64,000 nucleotides of DNA from Candidatus Altimarinota bacterium (GTDB lineage: Bacteria > Patescibacteriota > Gracilibacteria > UBA4473): positions 124,001 through 188,000 of the forward strand of contig JAIPJB010000001.1 of the NCBI GenBank assembly GCA_021734395.1. Direction: 5' to 3'. Positions 5,018 through 61,699 of the stretch are shown one piece after another; position 1 is the stretch's first letter, and each line of letters starts with the position of its first letter. Position numbers and translations under genes: made by a program. Below the pieces are notes generated by a model that saw only the letters and a program-made list of their open reading frames with translations, did no database searches and was not told where the DNA came from.

Positions 5018-6121
5018 ATGGCGAGGAAAAAAATTGTTGTCGGACTTTCCGGAGGGGTTGATAGTAGTGTCACAGCAAAGCTTTTGATCGATCAAGGACA
5101 CGAAGTAGTCGGTATTTTTATGAAAAACTGGGAAGATGACAGCCCCGAATGCACCGCCCCCCAAGACTGTACAACAGCTGAAAAAATAGCGCAAAAACTC
5201 AAGATTCCTTTTTATACTGTGAATTTTTCCCGAGAGTACTGGGAAAATGTTTTCGAATATTTCTTGGAAGAAAATCGCCAAGGTCGCACTCCCAATCCTG
5301 ATATATTGTGCAATCGGCATATTAAATTTGGCGCTTTTCTTCGAGAAGCGGAAAAGCTGGGAGCAGACCTGATTGCAACTGGTCATTATGCGAAAAAATA
5401 TATGAACCCAAAAACCAAAAAATATGAACTCCATATTCCTGTTGATCGCGAAAAAGACCAGACCTACTTCCTTCATGCCATCACGCAGAGTCAATTAGCA
5501 AAAGCTCTTTTCCCATTGCAAGATTTACAAAAGTCAGAGGTGCGACGTATCGCACGAGAAAATAATTTCTCAACCGCTGATAAAAAAGATTCCACTGGAA
5601 TCTGCTTCATCGGTGAGAGAAATTACATGCAATTTCTCCAGCGCTACATCCGAAAAGATCCAGGAGATTTTGTGGATATTGATACAGGAAAAAAAGTCGG
5701 AGAGCATATCGGACTCAGTTTTTATACCATTGGACAGAGAAAGAATTTGCAGATCGGAGGAGTGAAGGGGTTTGAAGAAAAACCTTGGTTTGTGATTGAA
5801 AAAGATGCGAAAAACAATCAGATCTTGGTATCTCAAAATGAAGAGAAATTATTGGGAAAAGAATTAACCGCGCACAAACTCACGTGGATCGGTGGAAATG
5901 CGCCGAGTGAAAATTTCGAGTGTGAAGCAAGGATTCGGTATCGGAGCAAGAAAGCGAAATGTTATGTAAAAATTGAACGTAGAGACGCGATTAATCGCGT
6001 CTCTAGCCAAGATTCAATGACACATATCACGTTTGACTCTCCTGTCCGTGCGATTTCTCCCGGACAATCAATCGTGTTTTATGACGGGGATGTGTGTTTG
6101 GGGGGAGGAGAAATTGTCTAA
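5018..6121 (+). CDS. mnmA: tRNA-specific 2-thiouridylase MnmA
   Basis: 367 aa. MnmA adenylates U34 of tRNA(Lys/Glu/Gln) and inserts sulfur. The PP-loop SGGVDSS is at residues 11-17. NPDILCNRHIKFG carries the nucleophilic Cys98 and DSTGICFIGER the persulfide Cys196. DQTYFLH (about 147-153) and the C-terminal YDGDVCLGGG are also conserved. A palindromic repeat lies in frame at about residues 321-329 (RDAINRVSS), in a loop of the C-terminal beta-barrel where homologues have no such insert; the flanking family motifs remain in frame. The sulfur donor is probably the cysteine desulfurase at 38024-39064. Confidence 0.96.
   Translation: MARKKIVVGLSGGVDSSVTAKLLIDQGHEVVGIFMKNWEDDSPECTAPQDCTTAEKIAQKLKIPFYTVNFSREYWENVFEYFLEENRQGRTPNPDILCNRHIKFGAFLREAEKLGADLIATGHYAKKYMNPKTKKYELHIPVDREKDQTYFLHAITQSQLAKALFPLQDLQKSEVRRIARENNFSTADKKDSTGICFIGERNYMQFLQRYIRKDPGDFVDIDTGKKVGEHIGLSFYTIGQRKNLQIGGVKGFEEKPWFVIEKDAKNNQILVSQNEEKLLGKELTAHKLTWIGGNAPSENFECEARIRYRSKKAKCYVKIERRDAINRVSSQDSMTHITFDSPVRAISPGQSIVFYDGDVCLGGGEIV
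5980..6005. repeat. 26-bp perfect palindrome inside mnmA
   Basis: Arms AGAGACGCGATT and AATCGCGTCTCT (5981-6004) form a perfect palindrome, extended by T/A to 26 bp. The same sequence, 28 bp including flanking G/C, occurs directly after clpC at 56868-56895. The copy here is read through as RDAINRVS without breaking mnmA. It is a REP-like palindromic element; no transposase of the REP-associated type is seen in the window. Confidence 0.9.
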
Positions 6122-34455: not shown

Positions 34456-34533
34456 GTCATCCTGAATTTAGTTCAGGATCTCCCTGCAGAATTGTCATTT
34501 CATAACCAGATGCTGAAACAAGTTCAGCATGAC
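34456..34533. repeat. GTCAT...ATGAC repeat element
   Basis: Starts GTCATCCTGAATTTAGTTCAGGA (arms TCCTGAA/TTCAGGA) and ends TGCTGAAACAAGTTCAGCATGAC (arms TGCTGAA/TTCAGCA). Two hairpins and terminal GTCAT/ATGAC inverted repeats over 78 bp. It lies in the gap before ychF. Confidence 0.85.
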
Positions 34534-34544
34534 AATACAAAGAT

Positions 34545-46431: not shown

Positions 46432-46507
46432 GTCATTCCGGACTTGATCCGGAATCTCCTTTTCTCCACAGATGAAGAATGAGATCCTGAAACAAGTTCA
46501 GGATGAC
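46432..46507. repeat. GTCAT...ATGAC repeat element
   Basis: GTCATTCCGGACTTGATCCGGAAT (arms TTCCGGA/TCCGGAA) then, after a 20-base link, GATCCTGAAACAAGTTCAGGATGAC (arms TCCTGAA/TTCAGGA). 76 bp. It lies between smpB and the Cys-rich gene, upstream of smpB. Confidence 0.85.
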
Positions 46508-46544
46508 ATATACAAGATTCTGAAGAAAAATTCCAATTCTCGCC

Positions 46545-54150: not shown

Positions 54151-54177
54151 TTTGCAAACTCATGTCTTGAGTGCTAA
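54151..54177. promoter_or_regulatory. CIRCE-like operator (HrcA site) before clpC
   Basis: TTTGCAAAC-N9-GAGTGCTAA. The right half is identical to the CIRCE consensus (TTAGCACTC-N9-GAGTGCTAA) and the left half matches 6 of 9. It lies between the -10 box and the clpC ATG, the normal place for HrcA repression. hrcA is not in the window. Confidence 0.55.
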
Positions 54178-54188
54178 AAAAGAAACCC

Positions 54189-56867
54189 ATGTCACATTTT
54201 GATTCCTTTACCCATTTCGCAAAAAACACACTTATTCTTTCTCAGGAAGAAATGCGCCGACTCGGAGATCGGCAGGTTCAAACTCAGCATTTGCTTCTGG
54301 GGATTCTGCGTCAGCCAAAATCTTTGGCCGGCTCTATCCTTCGTAATTACGGGATTACTTACGAAAACACTTTTCGCATTGCTGAAGATATAAAGCAGGC
54401 CGAAGAAAAAGAAGAAGTGTCTGATAAAGAGAATCAGAATATTTTTTCGATGTATGCCCAAAAAGTGATCGAAGTTGCCGCACAAACGGCTTTAGATTTC
54501 GGGCATTCGATGGTGGATTCTGAGCACATTCTCTATGCGCTTCTCAAGCAAAAAAATTCTGGATCCAATCAGATACTCGAATCACTTATGATCAAAACCG
54601 ATCAGATCCTCGAGCATCTGGAAGACGTATTCCGAAAAAGTGAAGAAAAAGATGCTTCTGCCTCAACACAAATGAATGCCAATGCGGCACAACTGGAACA
54701 ATTGCTCAATGGCCTGCACGGAATTCTTGTGGGGATGTCAGTCGGAATGAATAACGAAGATATTGAGAGTGGTGCTGGCGGACAATTTTCTCCGCAAAAT
54801 ATGGAAGAGAAAGTTGGAGAATCAGCTCCGCGAAAATCACGCAAGAAAAAACTCGCATTGGATTACTTCTGCAGCGATTTCACAGAAATGGCGATGAACG
54901 GAAAACTCGACAAAATTATCGGTCGAGAAAAAGAAATCAAACGTGTTATCCAGATTCTCTCACGAAAAAATAAAAACAATCCCGTTCTTCTCGGTGATCC
55001 AGGCGTCGGAAAAACAGCTGTAGTGGAAGGTTTGGCGCAAAAAATTGTTGCCGGAAATGTCCCTGATATTTTGGTCGACAAACGTGTTTTGTCTCTGTCT
55101 ATGTCCAATCTCGTCGCCGGAACAAAATATCGCGGAGAATTCGAAGAACGACTCAAACGAATTATTGATGAAGCATCCGAGGCCGCAAACGAAGTCATTC
55201 TTTTTATTGATGAACTGCACACTATTATCGGAGCAGGATCCGCTGAAGGATCCCTAGATGCGGCAAACATTCTCAAACCAGCCCTCTCGCGGGGATTAAT
55301 TCAATTGGTCGGCGCTACAACGGTAGAAGAATATCGCAAACATATCGAAAAGGATTCTGCACTGGCTCGTCGATTTCAGAGTATAGATGTTCCAGAACCG
55401 ACAACTGACGAAGCGATACAGATTCTCAAAGGGCTTCGCCCTCACTACGAACAATACCACAATGTCAAAATCTCTGATGATGCTGTATCTTCAGCGGTAA
55501 AATTGTCTGCGCGTTATATCAACGATCGGTTTTTGCCGGACAAAGCGCTGGATCTTTTGGATGAAGCCTGTGCTTCCAAATCAGTCGCCTCAAGTGCCAG
55601 TGGAAAAGAAATTCGTGAGCTCCGACAGAAACTCGCCGAATTACAAAAGAAAAAAGAATCCGCTGTCATTGCTCAGAACTACGAAAAAGCAAATCGCCTC
55701 CACCAAGAAGAGCAACAGGTGGAACTGCAAATCCAAACTCTCAAATCCAAAAAAGCGAAGTCTCAGCCACCCAAAAAGATCAACCAACTGGATATCGCTA
55801 AAATTTTAGAGCAGGCAACTGATATCCCTGTTTCTGCTTTGCTGGATTCAGAAATTAAACAGTTGCGAAGTCTCGAACAGACGCTGACCCAAAAAATCAT
55901 CGGCCAGGAAAAAGCCATTGAATCTGTTTCCAAGGCTATCCGTCGATCACGCGTTGGTCTCCAAAACCCGAATCGTCCATTGGGCGTTTTTCTCTTTTTG
56001 GGACCGACGGGGGTTGGAAAAACAGAACTCGTCAAACAACTCGCACAAGAAGTCTTTCACGACGAAAAAGCCTTGATCAAAGTCGATATGTCCGAGTTTT
56101 CATCGGGGCATACCGGCTCTCGATTGGTTGGCGCTCCAGCTGGATATGTGGGGCATGAAGAAGGCGGGGAACTCACCGAAAAAGTTCGTCGCAAACCCTA
56201 TTCGATTATTCTTTTCGATGAGATCGAAAAAGCCCATCGAGAAGTCCATAATATGCTCTTGCAAATTTTCGAAGACGGGCATCTTACCGACGGCAAAGGT
56301 CGCCGAATTTCGTTCCGCAATACAATCATTATTATGACGTCCAATATCGGAGCGAAACGATTTCAACAAAATGCCAATTCTATCGGATTCGGAGACACCA
56401 AAAAAGATCTCGCCGAACACGAACAGGAGTTTGAATCTATCAGTGAAGACGTGATGAAAGATCTGAAACAATCTTTCACGCCAGAATTTATCAACCGGGT
56501 GGATTCGGTCACAATCTTTAAGCCCCTCACTCGCGAAGCAATCAAAGAAATTGTAAAACTGCAGATCGATGAATTCGAAACCCGACTGCGGGAAGAAAAA
56601 GGATTAACGCTTGAAGTTTCTGGATCCGTTCTCAATTCACTTGCCAAAGAGGCCTATCACCCCGAATCCGGTGCCCGCCAAGTTCGCCGAGTATTGGCTG
56701 ATAAACTCGAAAATCCGCTCGTAGAAACCATTTTGGAAAACAATATACCGAAAAATGCCAGACTAAAAGTCAATTACGACAGCCAGAAAAAAACCTGTTC
56801 ATTTGAAGAGATGAAGCCGAAAACAAAGAAAACTTCTGCCAAGAAAACAAAAGCGAAAAAGAAATAA
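54189..56867 (+). CDS. clpC: ATP-dependent Clp protease ATP-binding subunit ClpC
   Basis: 892 aa from ATG 54189 (MSHFDSFTHFAKNTLIL). AAA+ unfoldase that feeds ClpP. Two N-domain repeats (about 5-70 and 85-150), D1 Walker A GDPGVGKTAV with IDELHTIIGAG and LKPALSRG, a short middle region with a UVR-like EKANRLHQEEQQVELQIQ (typical of ClpC and too short for ClpB), D2 Walker A GPTGVGKTELVKQLA, IILFDEIEKAH and FINRVDSV. The C-terminus is Lys-rich (KPKTKKTSAKKTKAKKK). An extended linker (about 160-225) is unusual. Followed immediately by the REP-like palindrome. Confidence 0.95.
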   Translation: MSHFDSFTHFAKNTLILSQEEMRRLGDRQVQTQHLLLGILRQPKSLAGSILRNYGITYENTFRIAEDIKQAEEKEEVSDKENQNIFSMYAQKVIEVAAQTALDFGHSMVDSEHILYALLKQKNSGSNQILESLMIKTDQILEHLEDVFRKSEEKDASASTQMNANAAQLEQLLNGLHGILVGMSVGMNNEDIESGAGGQFSPQNMEEKVGESAPRKSRKKKLALDYFCSDFTEMAMNGKLDKIIGREKEIKRVIQILSRKNKNNPVLLGDPGVGKTAVVEGLAQKIVAGNVPDILVDKRVLSLSMSNLVAGTKYRGEFEERLKRIIDEASEAANEVILFIDELHTIIGAGSAEGSLDAANILKPALSRGLIQLVGATTVEEYRKHIEKDSALARRFQSIDVPEPTTDEAIQILKGLRPHYEQYHNVKISDDAVSSAVKLSARYINDRFLPDKALDLLDEACASKSVASSASGKEIRELRQKLAELQKKKESAVIAQNYEKANRLHQEEQQVELQIQTLKSKKAKSQPPKKINQLDIAKILEQATDIPVSALLDSEIKQLRSLEQTLTQKIIGQEKAIESVSKAIRRSRVGLQNPNRPLGVFLFLGPTGVGKTELVKQLAQEVFHDEKALIKVDMSEFSSGHTGSRLVGAPAGYVGHEEGGELTEKVRRKPYSIILFDEIEKAHREVHNMLLQIFEDGHLTDGKGRRISFRNTIIIMTSNIGAKRFQQNANSIGFGDTKKDLAEHEQEFESISEDVMKDLKQSFTPEFINRVDSVTIFKPLTREAIKEIVKLQIDEFETRLREEKGLTLEVSGSVLNSLAKEAYHPESGARQVRRVLADKLENPLVETILENNIPKNARLKVNYDSQKKTCSFEEMKPKTKKTSAKKTKAKKK

Positions 56868-56901
56868 GTAGAGACGCGATTAATCGCGTCTCTACATTTT
56901 T
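56868..56901 (+). terminator. REP-like palindrome acting as clpC terminator
   Basis: Starts on the base after the clpC stop: 28-bp perfect palindrome (arms GTAGAGACGCGATT and AATCGCGTCTCTAC, 56868-56895) followed by ATTTTTT. The same sequence lies inside mnmA (5980-6005). It could also end the convergent trmB-like transcript. Confidence 0.85.
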
Positions 56902-56903
56902 TA

Positions 56904-57665
56904 CTATTTTGAATTTTTCTTCGGCTCCGGACACAAATCCCAGAGCAGCTGAAACCACGTTTTGAACGCATCAGCGATATCTTGATTGACGATAACCGTA
57001 AAGCTAAATTCTTGTCCAAATCCGCCAATAACCCCGTTGGAGAGGATATTGACGTGATCGCCAAAAATATCGATTGCGGCTTTGGTCGAATATTTTGCAG
57101 GGAGAAATTTATATTTTTTCCCGACATATGGGATGATTTCTGGACATTCCGTCTCCACTTCCGCATCAAAAAGGTGATAAAAATCCAGCTTTTTTTCTTT
57201 GAGTTCTTCCGAAAAATGCGGAAAAAAGTGTTTCACCCGCTCATCCAACCACATGCCCTTGGCGCCAATGAAGTAGGCTGTTTCGCCTACTCGAATCATA
57301 TCTCGCATATAATTTTTCCATCCTTCCGGACCGCGATACACAAAGACATCGTCTTTGTGTGGCACAGAAGCATAGAGCTTATCGAGGGCCGGCAACACAC
57401 GATCCAGCATATCCTGCTTTTCCTGGATAAATTCTCGAAATTTATGCGGATCTACCGCCTGATACATATTTTCGTGAGGAGAGAGAATCTCAAACACTAC
57501 TCCTTTCTCGATCAGGCGCTTGAGAGAATCATACACATTGCGCCGATGTACTTGTGTTTTTTGAGCGATATCGCCAACCGATAATTCGCCTTCCCGGAGC
57601 AAGGCTTCGTAAATAATGGCTTCATTTTTAGAAAATCCGAATTGGGCAAAAACCTTCTCGTACAT
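56904..57665 (-). CDS. TrmB-family transcriptional regulator
   Basis: 253 aa from ATG 57665 (MYEKVFAQFGFSKNEAIIY). The N-terminal winged helix is typical of TrmB/SgrR-like regulators: GFSKNEAIIYEALLREGELS, DIAQKTQVHRRNVYDSLKRL, IEKGVVFEIL (about 9-65), followed by FREFIQEKQDMLDRVLPALDKLYA (dimerising helix) and a C-terminal phospholipase D-like sensing domain (about 105-245, DVFVYRGPEGWKNYMRDMI). Known members sense sugars. Divergent from a sodium/solute symporter gene, with tandem operator sequences between them, so it likely controls that gene and itself. Confidence 0.85.
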   Translation of the reverse strand: MYEKVFAQFGFSKNEAIIYEALLREGELSVGDIAQKTQVHRRNVYDSLKRLIEKGVVFEILSPHENMYQAVDPHKFREFIQEKQDMLDRVLPALDKLYASVPHKDDVFVYRGPEGWKNYMRDMIRVGETAYFIGAKGMWLDERVKHFFPHFSEELKEKKLDFYHLFDAEVETECPEIIPYVGKKYKFLPAKYSTKAAIDIFGDHVNILSNGVIGGFGQEFSFTVIVNQDIADAFKTWFQLLWDLCPEPKKNSK

Positions 57666-57683
57666 TGAGTTCGTGTTATTTGT

Positions 57684-57710
57684 GGTGATAAGTATCACCA
57701 TTTGGTGATA
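57684..57710. promoter_or_regulatory. Tandem operator GGTGATA/TATCACC between regulator and symporter
   Basis: Three half-sites in a row: GGTGATA (57684-57690), TATCACC (57693-57699), GGTGATA (57704-57710). Neighbouring pairs form overlapping palindromes with 2- and 4-base gaps. It lies just upstream of the regulator's ATG and 66 bases before the symporter ATG. Confidence 0.75.
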
Positions 57711-59806: not shown

Positions 59807-61699
59807 ATGAAATACACCACCGATTATTTACGTGAAAAATGGATCGCCTTCTGGCGAGAAAAAGACCATACGATCCTGCCTTCGGCAAGTGTCATTCCTG
59901 ACAATGATCCGACCGCTCTCTTTCACAACTCCGGCATGCATCCGCTGGTGCCTTTCCTCATGGGAGAAGATCATCCAGAAGGAAAACGACTGGCGAATGC
60001 ACAGAAATGCATCCGAACGGGTGACATTGATGAAGTCGGCGATGCGGTGCACCTGACTTTTTTCGAAATGCTGGGGAACTGGTCACTGGGAGACTACAAA
60101 AAAGAAGACCAGATCCGATGGTCGTATGAGTTTTTGACCGATGAAAAATGGCTCGGCCTAGATCCCGAAAAACTCGCTGTTTCGGTTTTTGCTGGAGATG
60201 ACGATGCTCCCCGAGACGAAGAAGCGGCGAAAGTTTGGCAATCATGCGGTATTGCCCCCGAACGAATCGCCTACCTGGGGAAAGCCGATAACTGGTGGGC
60301 CAAGGGGGATATCGGACCGTGTGGTCCCGACAGCGAGATGTTTTACTGGACCGGAGACAAACCCGCTCCAGAAAACTTCCAAGAAACCCACGATGACGAA
60401 CACTGGGTCGAGATCTGGAACGATGTCTTTATGGAGTTTAATCGGACCGAAAAAGGCGCGCTCGAATCCTTGCCCCAAAAAAATATCGATACCGGTATGG
60501 GGCTGGAACGAACTGTCGCCGTACTCAATGGCCTGCAATCGGTGTATCAGACCTATGCTTTTGCGCTAATTTTGGAAAAAATCGCAGATCTGGCCGGAAA
60601 GCCAGAACTGGCAAAAAACCCCATCGCCAAAACTCCGGAGGCAAATTCTGCACGGATTATTGCCGATCACTTGCGCTCAGCCACGGTAATGATTGGGGAT
60701 AGTATCATCCCGTCTAATACCGATCAGGGATACATCCTCCGCCGACTCATTCGTCGAGCCATTCGTCATGCGCGAAAACTCGGCATCCAGGGAAGTGAAA
60801 ATGAGTCTTTCGGTTTTTGCAATAGTATTGCAAAAACGGTAATAAAGAAGCTTTCACCATACTATCCAGGACTCAAGACCAAAGAGTCTTTCATTCTGGA
60901 AGAGCTGAACCGGGAAGAGGCACAGTTTTTGAAAACGCTAGAAAAAGGGGAAAAAGAGTTTGAGAAACTGGTTTCCTCTCTTTCTCGTCATCCTGAATTT
61001 ATTTCAGGATCTCCCAAATCATGCTCAAGCTCTGAGATTCCGAAACAAGTTCGGAATGACAAGAGAGAAGGAGTTATCGCCGGATCAGATGCATTTAACC
61101 TGTATGAAACCTATGGATTTCCTCTCGAGATGACAATGGAACTGGCAGAAGAAAAACAACTAACTGTCGATGAAGATGGTTTTTATAAAGCGCAAGAACT
61201 CCACCAGCAAAAATCTCGTGCCGGTGCTGAGAAGAAATTTTCCGGAGGTCTGGGTGATAAATCCGAAGAAACCGTCAAACTTCATACTGCGACTCACCTC
61301 CTCCACGCAGCTCTACGAAAAGTCTTGGGCGAGCATGTCGAGCAGAGAGGATCCAATATTACCCCTGAGAGGCTTCGCTTTGATTTTTCGCACGAGGAAA
61401 AAATGACCCCCGAGCAAATAACGGAAGTCGAGAAACTGGTCAATGATGCAATCCAGGCCGATGTTCCTATTACCAAGAAGGAAATGACCGTCGAGGAAGC
61501 GAAGCAGTCGGGAGCGATCGGGCTTTTTGAACACAAATACGGAGACAAGGTCAAAGTGTACTCCATGGGGGACCTCTCCAAAGAAATCTGCGGCGGTCCA
61601 CATGTGGAACACACCGGTCAGTTGGGAAGTTTTAAGATCAAGAAAGAGCAAGCCTCTTCTCGAGGCGTGCGGAGGATTAAAGCGGTGGTAGGAAATTAA
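59807..61699 (+). CDS. alaS: Alanyl-tRNA synthetase, short form with in-frame repeat insertion
   Basis: 630 aa; bacterial AlaRS is usually about 850-880. Charges tRNA-Ala and edits Ser/Gly. Class II core: REKWIAFWREKDHTILPSASVIP, NSGMHPLVPFLMGE, GNWSLGDYKK, EIWNDVFMEFNR, NIDTGMGLERTVAVLNG and RIIADHLRSATVMI. The editing site keeps HTATHLLH and the CGGPHVEHT motif. The protein stops soon after (SRGVRRIKAV), so the C-Ala domain is missing. Residues about 394-418 (SRHPEFISGSPK...PKQVRNDK) are encoded by a GTCAT-family repeat placed just before AGSDAFNLYETYGFP and carried in frame. Confidence 0.96.
   Translation: MKYTTDYLREKWIAFWREKDHTILPSASVIPDNDPTALFHNSGMHPLVPFLMGEDHPEGKRLANAQKCIRTGDIDEVGDAVHLTFFEMLGNWSLGDYKKEDQIRWSYEFLTDEKWLGLDPEKLAVSVFAGDDDAPRDEEAAKVWQSCGIAPERIAYLGKADNWWAKGDIGPCGPDSEMFYWTGDKPAPENFQETHDDEHWVEIWNDVFMEFNRTEKGALESLPQKNIDTGMGLERTVAVLNGLQSVYQTYAFALILEKIADLAGKPELAKNPIAKTPEANSARIIADHLRSATVMIGDSIIPSNTDQGYILRRLIRRAIRHARKLGIQGSENESFGFCNSIAKTVIKKLSPYYPGLKTKESFILEELNREEAQFLKTLEKGEKEFEKLVSSLSRHPEFISGSPKSCSSSEIPKQVRNDKREGVIAGSDAFNLYETYGFPLEMTMELAEEKQLTVDEDGFYKAQELHQQKSRAGAEKKFSGGLGDKSEETVKLHTATHLLHAALRKVLGEHVEQRGSNITPERLRFDFSHEEKMTPEQITEVEKLVNDAIQADVPITKKEMTVEEAKQSGAIGLFEHKYGDKVKVYSMGDLSKEICGGPHVEHTGQLGSFKIKKEQASSRGVRRIKAVVGN
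60987..61060. repeat. GTCAT...ATGAC repeat inserted in frame in alaS
   Basis: GTCATCCTGAATTTATTTCAGGAT (arms TCCTGAA/TTCAGGA), a 20-base link, GATTCCGAAACAAGTTCGGAATGAC (arms ATTCCGAA/TTCGGAAT). 74 bp. Same family as 34456, 45220, 46432, 61703, 63497 and the fragment at 32777, all of which are intergenic. Confidence 0.9.

Follow-up and report, generated by a model that had tools for sequence, protein, structure and literature searches.

A 28-nt double-foot REP, probably mobile, in frame within mnmA and behind clpC in a patescibacterial genome

The TnpA_REP proteins of subclass 2.4 (Bertels RAYT group 4) go with double-foot REPs whose ends are GT[AG]G...C[TC]AC. They are abundant in Cyanobacteria and Bacteroidetes, are scattered elsewhere, and have REPs in frame in their own tnpA_REP genes (PMC6006769). 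GTAG-tagged palindromes of 20-40 nt, with in-frame copies in DNA-repair and tRNA-modification genes, were described by Di Nocera et al. in 2013, who also report different REPs at about the same recB site in two Xanthomonas species (PMC3733652). The Rickettsia palindromic elements (RPE), as treated there, are likewise palindromes in frame within conserved genes; RPE-4 and RPE-6 are CGTC-type repeats with no known transposase (PMC3733652).

A palindrome present twice in the window (the whole stretch of 64,000 nt that was analysed) resembles the REPs of subclass 2.4 in its foot ends, in the phyla where it is found and in its in-frame insertion in RAYT genes (PMC6006769). It shares GTAG palindromes and in-frame intragenic copies with the REPs of Di Nocera et al.; those, however, have an unpaired GTAG at one end, whereas in the complete copy here GTAG is base-paired to CTAC, which places it outside that group. 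The comparison with RPE concerns in-frame behaviour; RPE-1 is a longer palindrome, and the present element, in contrast to RPE-4 and RPE-6, is RAYT-associated. As intragenic REPs are already known from both papers, in-frame insertion itself is not new, though the sections of PMC3733652 available do not mention mnmA among the genes concerned. The palindrome is very probably a non-autonomous mobile double-foot REP that is presumably moved by a RAYT, is tolerated in a loop of the mnmA product and is capable of acting as a terminator after clpC.

Table 1. Features of the window that bear on the two REP copies.
Feature	Position	Strand	Basis or remark
mnmA, tRNA-specific 2-thiouridylase, 367 aa, frame intact	5018..6121	+	Pfam, E. 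coli MnmA match
Double-foot REP within mnmA	5979..6005	+	GTAG kept as the 5′ foot; CTAG, a decayed foot, at the 3′ end
clpC-like AAA+ gene	54171..56867	+	ORF list; name from its own sequence and the sequence-only reading
Full-length 28-nt double-foot REP adjoining the clpC stop, in the gap between convergent genes	56868..56895	+	
T-run making the clpC REP terminator-like	56897..56902	+	
Convergent gene, probable helix-turn-helix transcription regulator (read from sequence)	56904..57701	-	ORF list

The copy in mnmA (GTAGAGACGCGATTAATCGCGTCTCTA) is in frame and keeps its 5′ foot only, with CTAG instead of CTAC at the 3′ end; its perfect palindrome is of 26 nt (5980-6005). The clpC copy is a perfect 28-mer, GTAG...CTAC, with both feet and a paired stem (5′ GT[AG]G, 3′ C[TC]AC). 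That the same palindrome occurs at both places had been recognised in the sequence-only reading. Pfam tRNA_Me_trans, tRNA_Me_trans_M and tRNA_Me_trans_C are all found in the window MnmA, the last of them (residues 281-366) spanning the insert, and E. coli MnmA (2der) matches at E 3.6e-109. The REP codons specify RDAINRVS (residues 322-329) within ...RYRSKKAKCYVKIE-RRDAINRVSSQ-DSMTHITF..., and family motifs resume on both sides. The closest family member without a REP, L007, has ...RYRSDVVPCTVTLQKDTAQVTF... at the site, the window MnmA being 11 residues longer; MnmA proteins from related genomes of the family typically lack 11 residues at precisely this point, that of E. coli also lacks the residues of the insert, and family members outside the window's genus have no REP in mnmA. 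Relative to its family relatives the palindrome is confirmed as an insertion with the frame kept, as had been proposed. The expectation that all relatives have an empty site was too simple, since the sister species G001 holds a different REP there in the same register. An AlphaFold model of the window MnmA (mean pLDDT 92) agrees with the earlier placement in a beta-barrel loop: the REP residues are predicted to form a disordered beta-hairpin turn between strands 313-320 and 334-344 (pLDDT of the loop ~51, and <50 for residues 326-328).

Separately, in-frame inserts unrelated to the REP occur in mnmA of two genomes of another genus (L017:1498-2664 (-) and L018:1471-2658 (+)), with several AGTTCGAACT palindromes plus GGAGACCGGTCTCC in the same barrel loop and in an earlier one; those of the same loop are built of TTCGAA palindromes. 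In two further relatives (L029:1498-2598 (-) and L011:652-1776 (-)), repeats of GGATCCCTCGACTCCGCTCGGGATGAC and CCCCCTAGCCCCCTTGTCAGGGGG are read in frame in an earlier loop of the mnmA barrel domain.

Genome sizes and relatives in which TGA is recoded suggest that the host belongs to a Gracilibacteria-like class of Patescibacteria. Pattern searches of the host genome (1.02 Mb, 81% complete, 6 contigs) with the 24-nt core give two exact copies and two with 3 changes, the latter just 3′ of a stop codon (C2:82818) and in frame in a trpG/pabA-type gene (C6:106386). This very low copy number is a difference from the subclass 2.4 REPs described before. A near-palindrome, AGAGACAGAGCAATGCTCCGTCTCT, lies beside the C2 copy (L178:2290-2346) and is kin to the REP within the RAYT gene on host contig C3, and the window has five or more copies of another palindromic repeat family, made up of GTCATCCTGAATTTAGTTCAGGATCTC and its variants (including 34456-34534, 46481-46509 and 60987-61061).

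The search for a REP-associated Y1 transposase that the sequence-only reading had recommended finds three RAYT genes in the host (C3:6761-7309, C5:4578-5159 and C6:75343-76035), each with a kindred in-frame REP. The motifs given for subclass 2.4, NH[IVLF]H, WQ and YI..NP, are present, one host RAYT having YIHFNA in place of YIxxNP. NCBIfam REP_Tyr_transpos (NF047646) is the best match for all ten RAYTs tested, at 45-69 bits, below its curated cut-off of 80 bits; REP inserts split the RAYT domain in most of the ten. None of the three host RAYTs has exactly this core and the host holds only four copies of the REP type, and the enzyme responsible may therefore be gone from the genome, or encoded in the 19% that the assembly lacks. 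Elsewhere the identical REP is in frame within the RAYT genes of L095 (Bacteroidales), L147, L123, L084 and L154 (a variant in L047), the exact core sitting before the HUH motif in L147 and L123. The RAYTs with the identical REP have only 29-47% protein identity to each other, and the REP is therefore better conserved than its presumed enzyme.

A Y1/HUH transposase domain is also found in frame in the leucyl-tRNA synthetase (LeuRS) of the host (L174:2814-5720 (-), which is G000:C3:7313-10219), within the CP1 editing region at residues 236-401 (PF01797, E 1.2e-12, DHIHL and EYVRQNP); the LeuRS of G001 lacks exactly this piece. In another family of the class, G025 has Y1_Tnp domains in LeuRS and in an isoleucyl-type synthetase of 1311 aa (L244:159-3347 (+) and L245:123-4055 (+)). 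Other LeuRS genes of the class have other domains in frame: upstream of CP1, L246 and L247 have a serine hydrolase (PF06821), as do L248 and L250 by eye; L249 has two NUDIX stretches and L247 (1466 aa) further inserts. Whole domains seem to have landed in LeuRS repeatedly, and a literature search on such inserts found no paper.

With each species represented by one genome, the exact 24-nt core was found at many unrelated sites, in at least 118 stretches, against ~0.001 expected, from at least six phyla (Cyanobacteria, Bacteroidota, Patescibacteria, Pseudomonadota, Spirochaetota and Abditibacteriota), with Methylococcales, Spirochaetia and Abditibacteriaceae among the groups. Very small repeats in cyanobacteria were reportedly the subject of work by Elhai in 2008. 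Three cyanobacterial genomes have 179, 197 and 351 near-copies (<=3 mismatches), the reversed control giving zero, and the same element is in the isolates Calothrix sp. PCC 7103, Calothrix sp. PCC 7716 and Dulcicalothrix desertica PCC 7102. There was no match in the phage records searched, and of the plasmid records only two, both cyanobacterial, have the element. The GT foot is on 95-96% of 241 arms from other genomes, with the outside bases near random except for T at the next position, and both feet are in 108 of 121 copies elsewhere; the borders of the element are sharp at GTAG and CTAC. While PMC6006769 treats REPs as species-specific, the present core is the same letter for letter in six phyla. 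Searches for papers with the sequence or the peptide RDAINRVS gave none of relevance, and no report of this REP in Patescibacteria was found in the literature search.

Long ORFs contain 30 of 121 REP copies (25%), compared with 65% of random positions (p 1e-18). As the REP is self-complementary and has a stop (TAG) in one of its three frames only, it is readable in two frames, as RDAINRVS or VETRLIASL, in either orientation, and the long-ORF copies use the two 16:14. Copies being scarcer in genes than expected is what purifying selection predicts, and points to tolerated insertions. Pfam confirms the genes around the REP as those for RecG, flavodoxin/FAD reductase, NRPS, Ogt (O6-methylguanine methyltransferase), Vsr, GH20 and others, with BchH/CobN of two cyanobacteria having it at the same site. 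REPs are also in G018 and G001 ORFs read, from their sequence, as RadA, RibD, MurF-like and RNA methyltransferase.

Could the copies instead be kept as RNA or DNA signals (terminator, mRNA stabiliser or attenuator), the mnmA hairpin tuning mnmA expression? This is unlikely, even though the calculated hairpins are strong, −17.9 kcal/mol for mnmA and −21.5 kcal/mol, with 12 pairs, for clpC. The first base of the clpC copy adjoins the stop codon (56865-56867), and the convergent gene ends 8 nt from the REP, a location between convergent genes being a usual REP position in PMC3733652. Its G+C-rich hairpin followed by a T-run has the sequence pattern of an intrinsic terminator, and this copy can probably serve as one, in agreement with the first reading. 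However, that capacity comes from the flanking T-run and not from the REP in itself; a terminator role as a general REP property was rejected, there being no consistent T-run in the flanks of the 241 arms. In mnmA the hairpin is followed by GCCAAGATTC, with no T-run 3′ of it. Of the hairpin or partial terminator once envisaged inside the gene, a possible mRNA hairpin is therefore retained and an intrinsic terminator is not. Neither does the distribution among relatives favour a signal. The clpC-like gene has orthologues in five relatives (67-78% identical), and the four family members checked have no REP after it, just as mnmA has none in the family beyond the genus; behind its clpC, G001 retains half a REP (GTCCCTACATTTTTTT; GTCCCTAC) and the same T-run as the window. 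The depletion from genes also speaks against retained signals.

The sister species is what lends some credence to recruitment, in which the REP-coded peptide would have become a useful part of MnmA on which the host protein now depends, a possibility that is likewise improbable. Both species of the genus have a REP at this position in mnmA. G001 MnmA, 73% identical to that of the window, has the REP GTAGGGACGTAGCATGCTACGTCTCTAC, whose peptide V-A-C-Y-V-S-T is predicted to be the barrel strand at residues 313-319 (pLDDT ~97). The overall length is unchanged, and the native strand is absent. G001 matches native C315-Y316-V317, which selection on the strand would explain. In the window's species, by contrast, the peptide is modelled as an extra, disordered loop, and in relatives the barrel strand tolerates many sequences. 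A chance palindrome or an assembly artefact is scarcely credible: the assembly is incomplete and in pieces, but the number of further copies of the 27-mer expected by chance in 64 kb is only ~6e-12, the frame is intact, and the same element is in the Calothrix and Dulcicalothrix isolates and the two plasmids.

Under the favoured reading, a 28-nt non-autonomous mobile element, the double-foot REP (GTAG-stem-CTAC) would be of the type served by HUH/Y1 transposases (RAYT/TnpA_REP subclass 2.4), its single-stranded hairpin presumably recognised at the GTAG foot and moved by a RAYT, by analogy with published work on the E. coli enzyme. Insertions would survive in genes where the added residues fall in a loop. 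In mnmA the insertion would add a net 33 nt, or 11 codons, to a beta-hairpin turn within the C-terminal barrel, and would be expected to leave MnmA functional; behind clpC the REP between convergent genes may, with its adjacent T-run, terminate transcription. Neither a target duplication nor a same-species pair with an empty site was seen.

In the window and in G001 alike, 19 nt of mnmA separate the REP from a conserved CAT further downstream, and these align gap-free, so that the REP site is probably the same in the two. An independent insertion in G001 was considered and is disfavoured, this distance favouring one old site. The two mnmA REPs differ at five stem pairs with both sides changed, and paired changes maintain the palindrome among family members; the G001 state is either an insertion plus a 33-nt deletion or a replacement in place. 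A similar pattern across the two species is repeated in the trpG/pabA-type gene, where the window's genome has GGAGAGGCGCGATTCATCGCGCCTCTAC in frame and the corresponding position in G001 holds GTAGCAACGCGTCATGCCGCATTGCTAC, a decayed form, while four other family members have none. In the window's genus the mnmA, trpG and clpC REP sites appear to be older than the species split, the REP sequence at them having apparently since been replaced or drifted with paired changes.

What is new is the setting in Patescibacteria, the letter-for-letter identity across phyla and the turnover of REPs at stable sites (mnmA, trpG). The fuller proposal, that one 28-nt REP has stayed letter-identical in at least six phyla while its carrier RAYTs diverged (29-47%), and that mnmA and trpG are old stable berths in which the REP sequence has been swapped, in one species supplying a strand of the MnmA barrel, is put forward tentatively, its chances being a shade below even.

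REP/RAYT systems are present in Patescibacteria with ~1-Mb genomes, and there also within conserved genes. The identical palindrome (single-stranded GTAGAGACGCGATTAATCGCGTCTCTAC) is a defined substrate for tests of RAYT specificity and is useful for following how very small mobile DNA spreads horizontally, and the pair of sister species offers a natural comparison for the path from selfish palindrome to protein segment.
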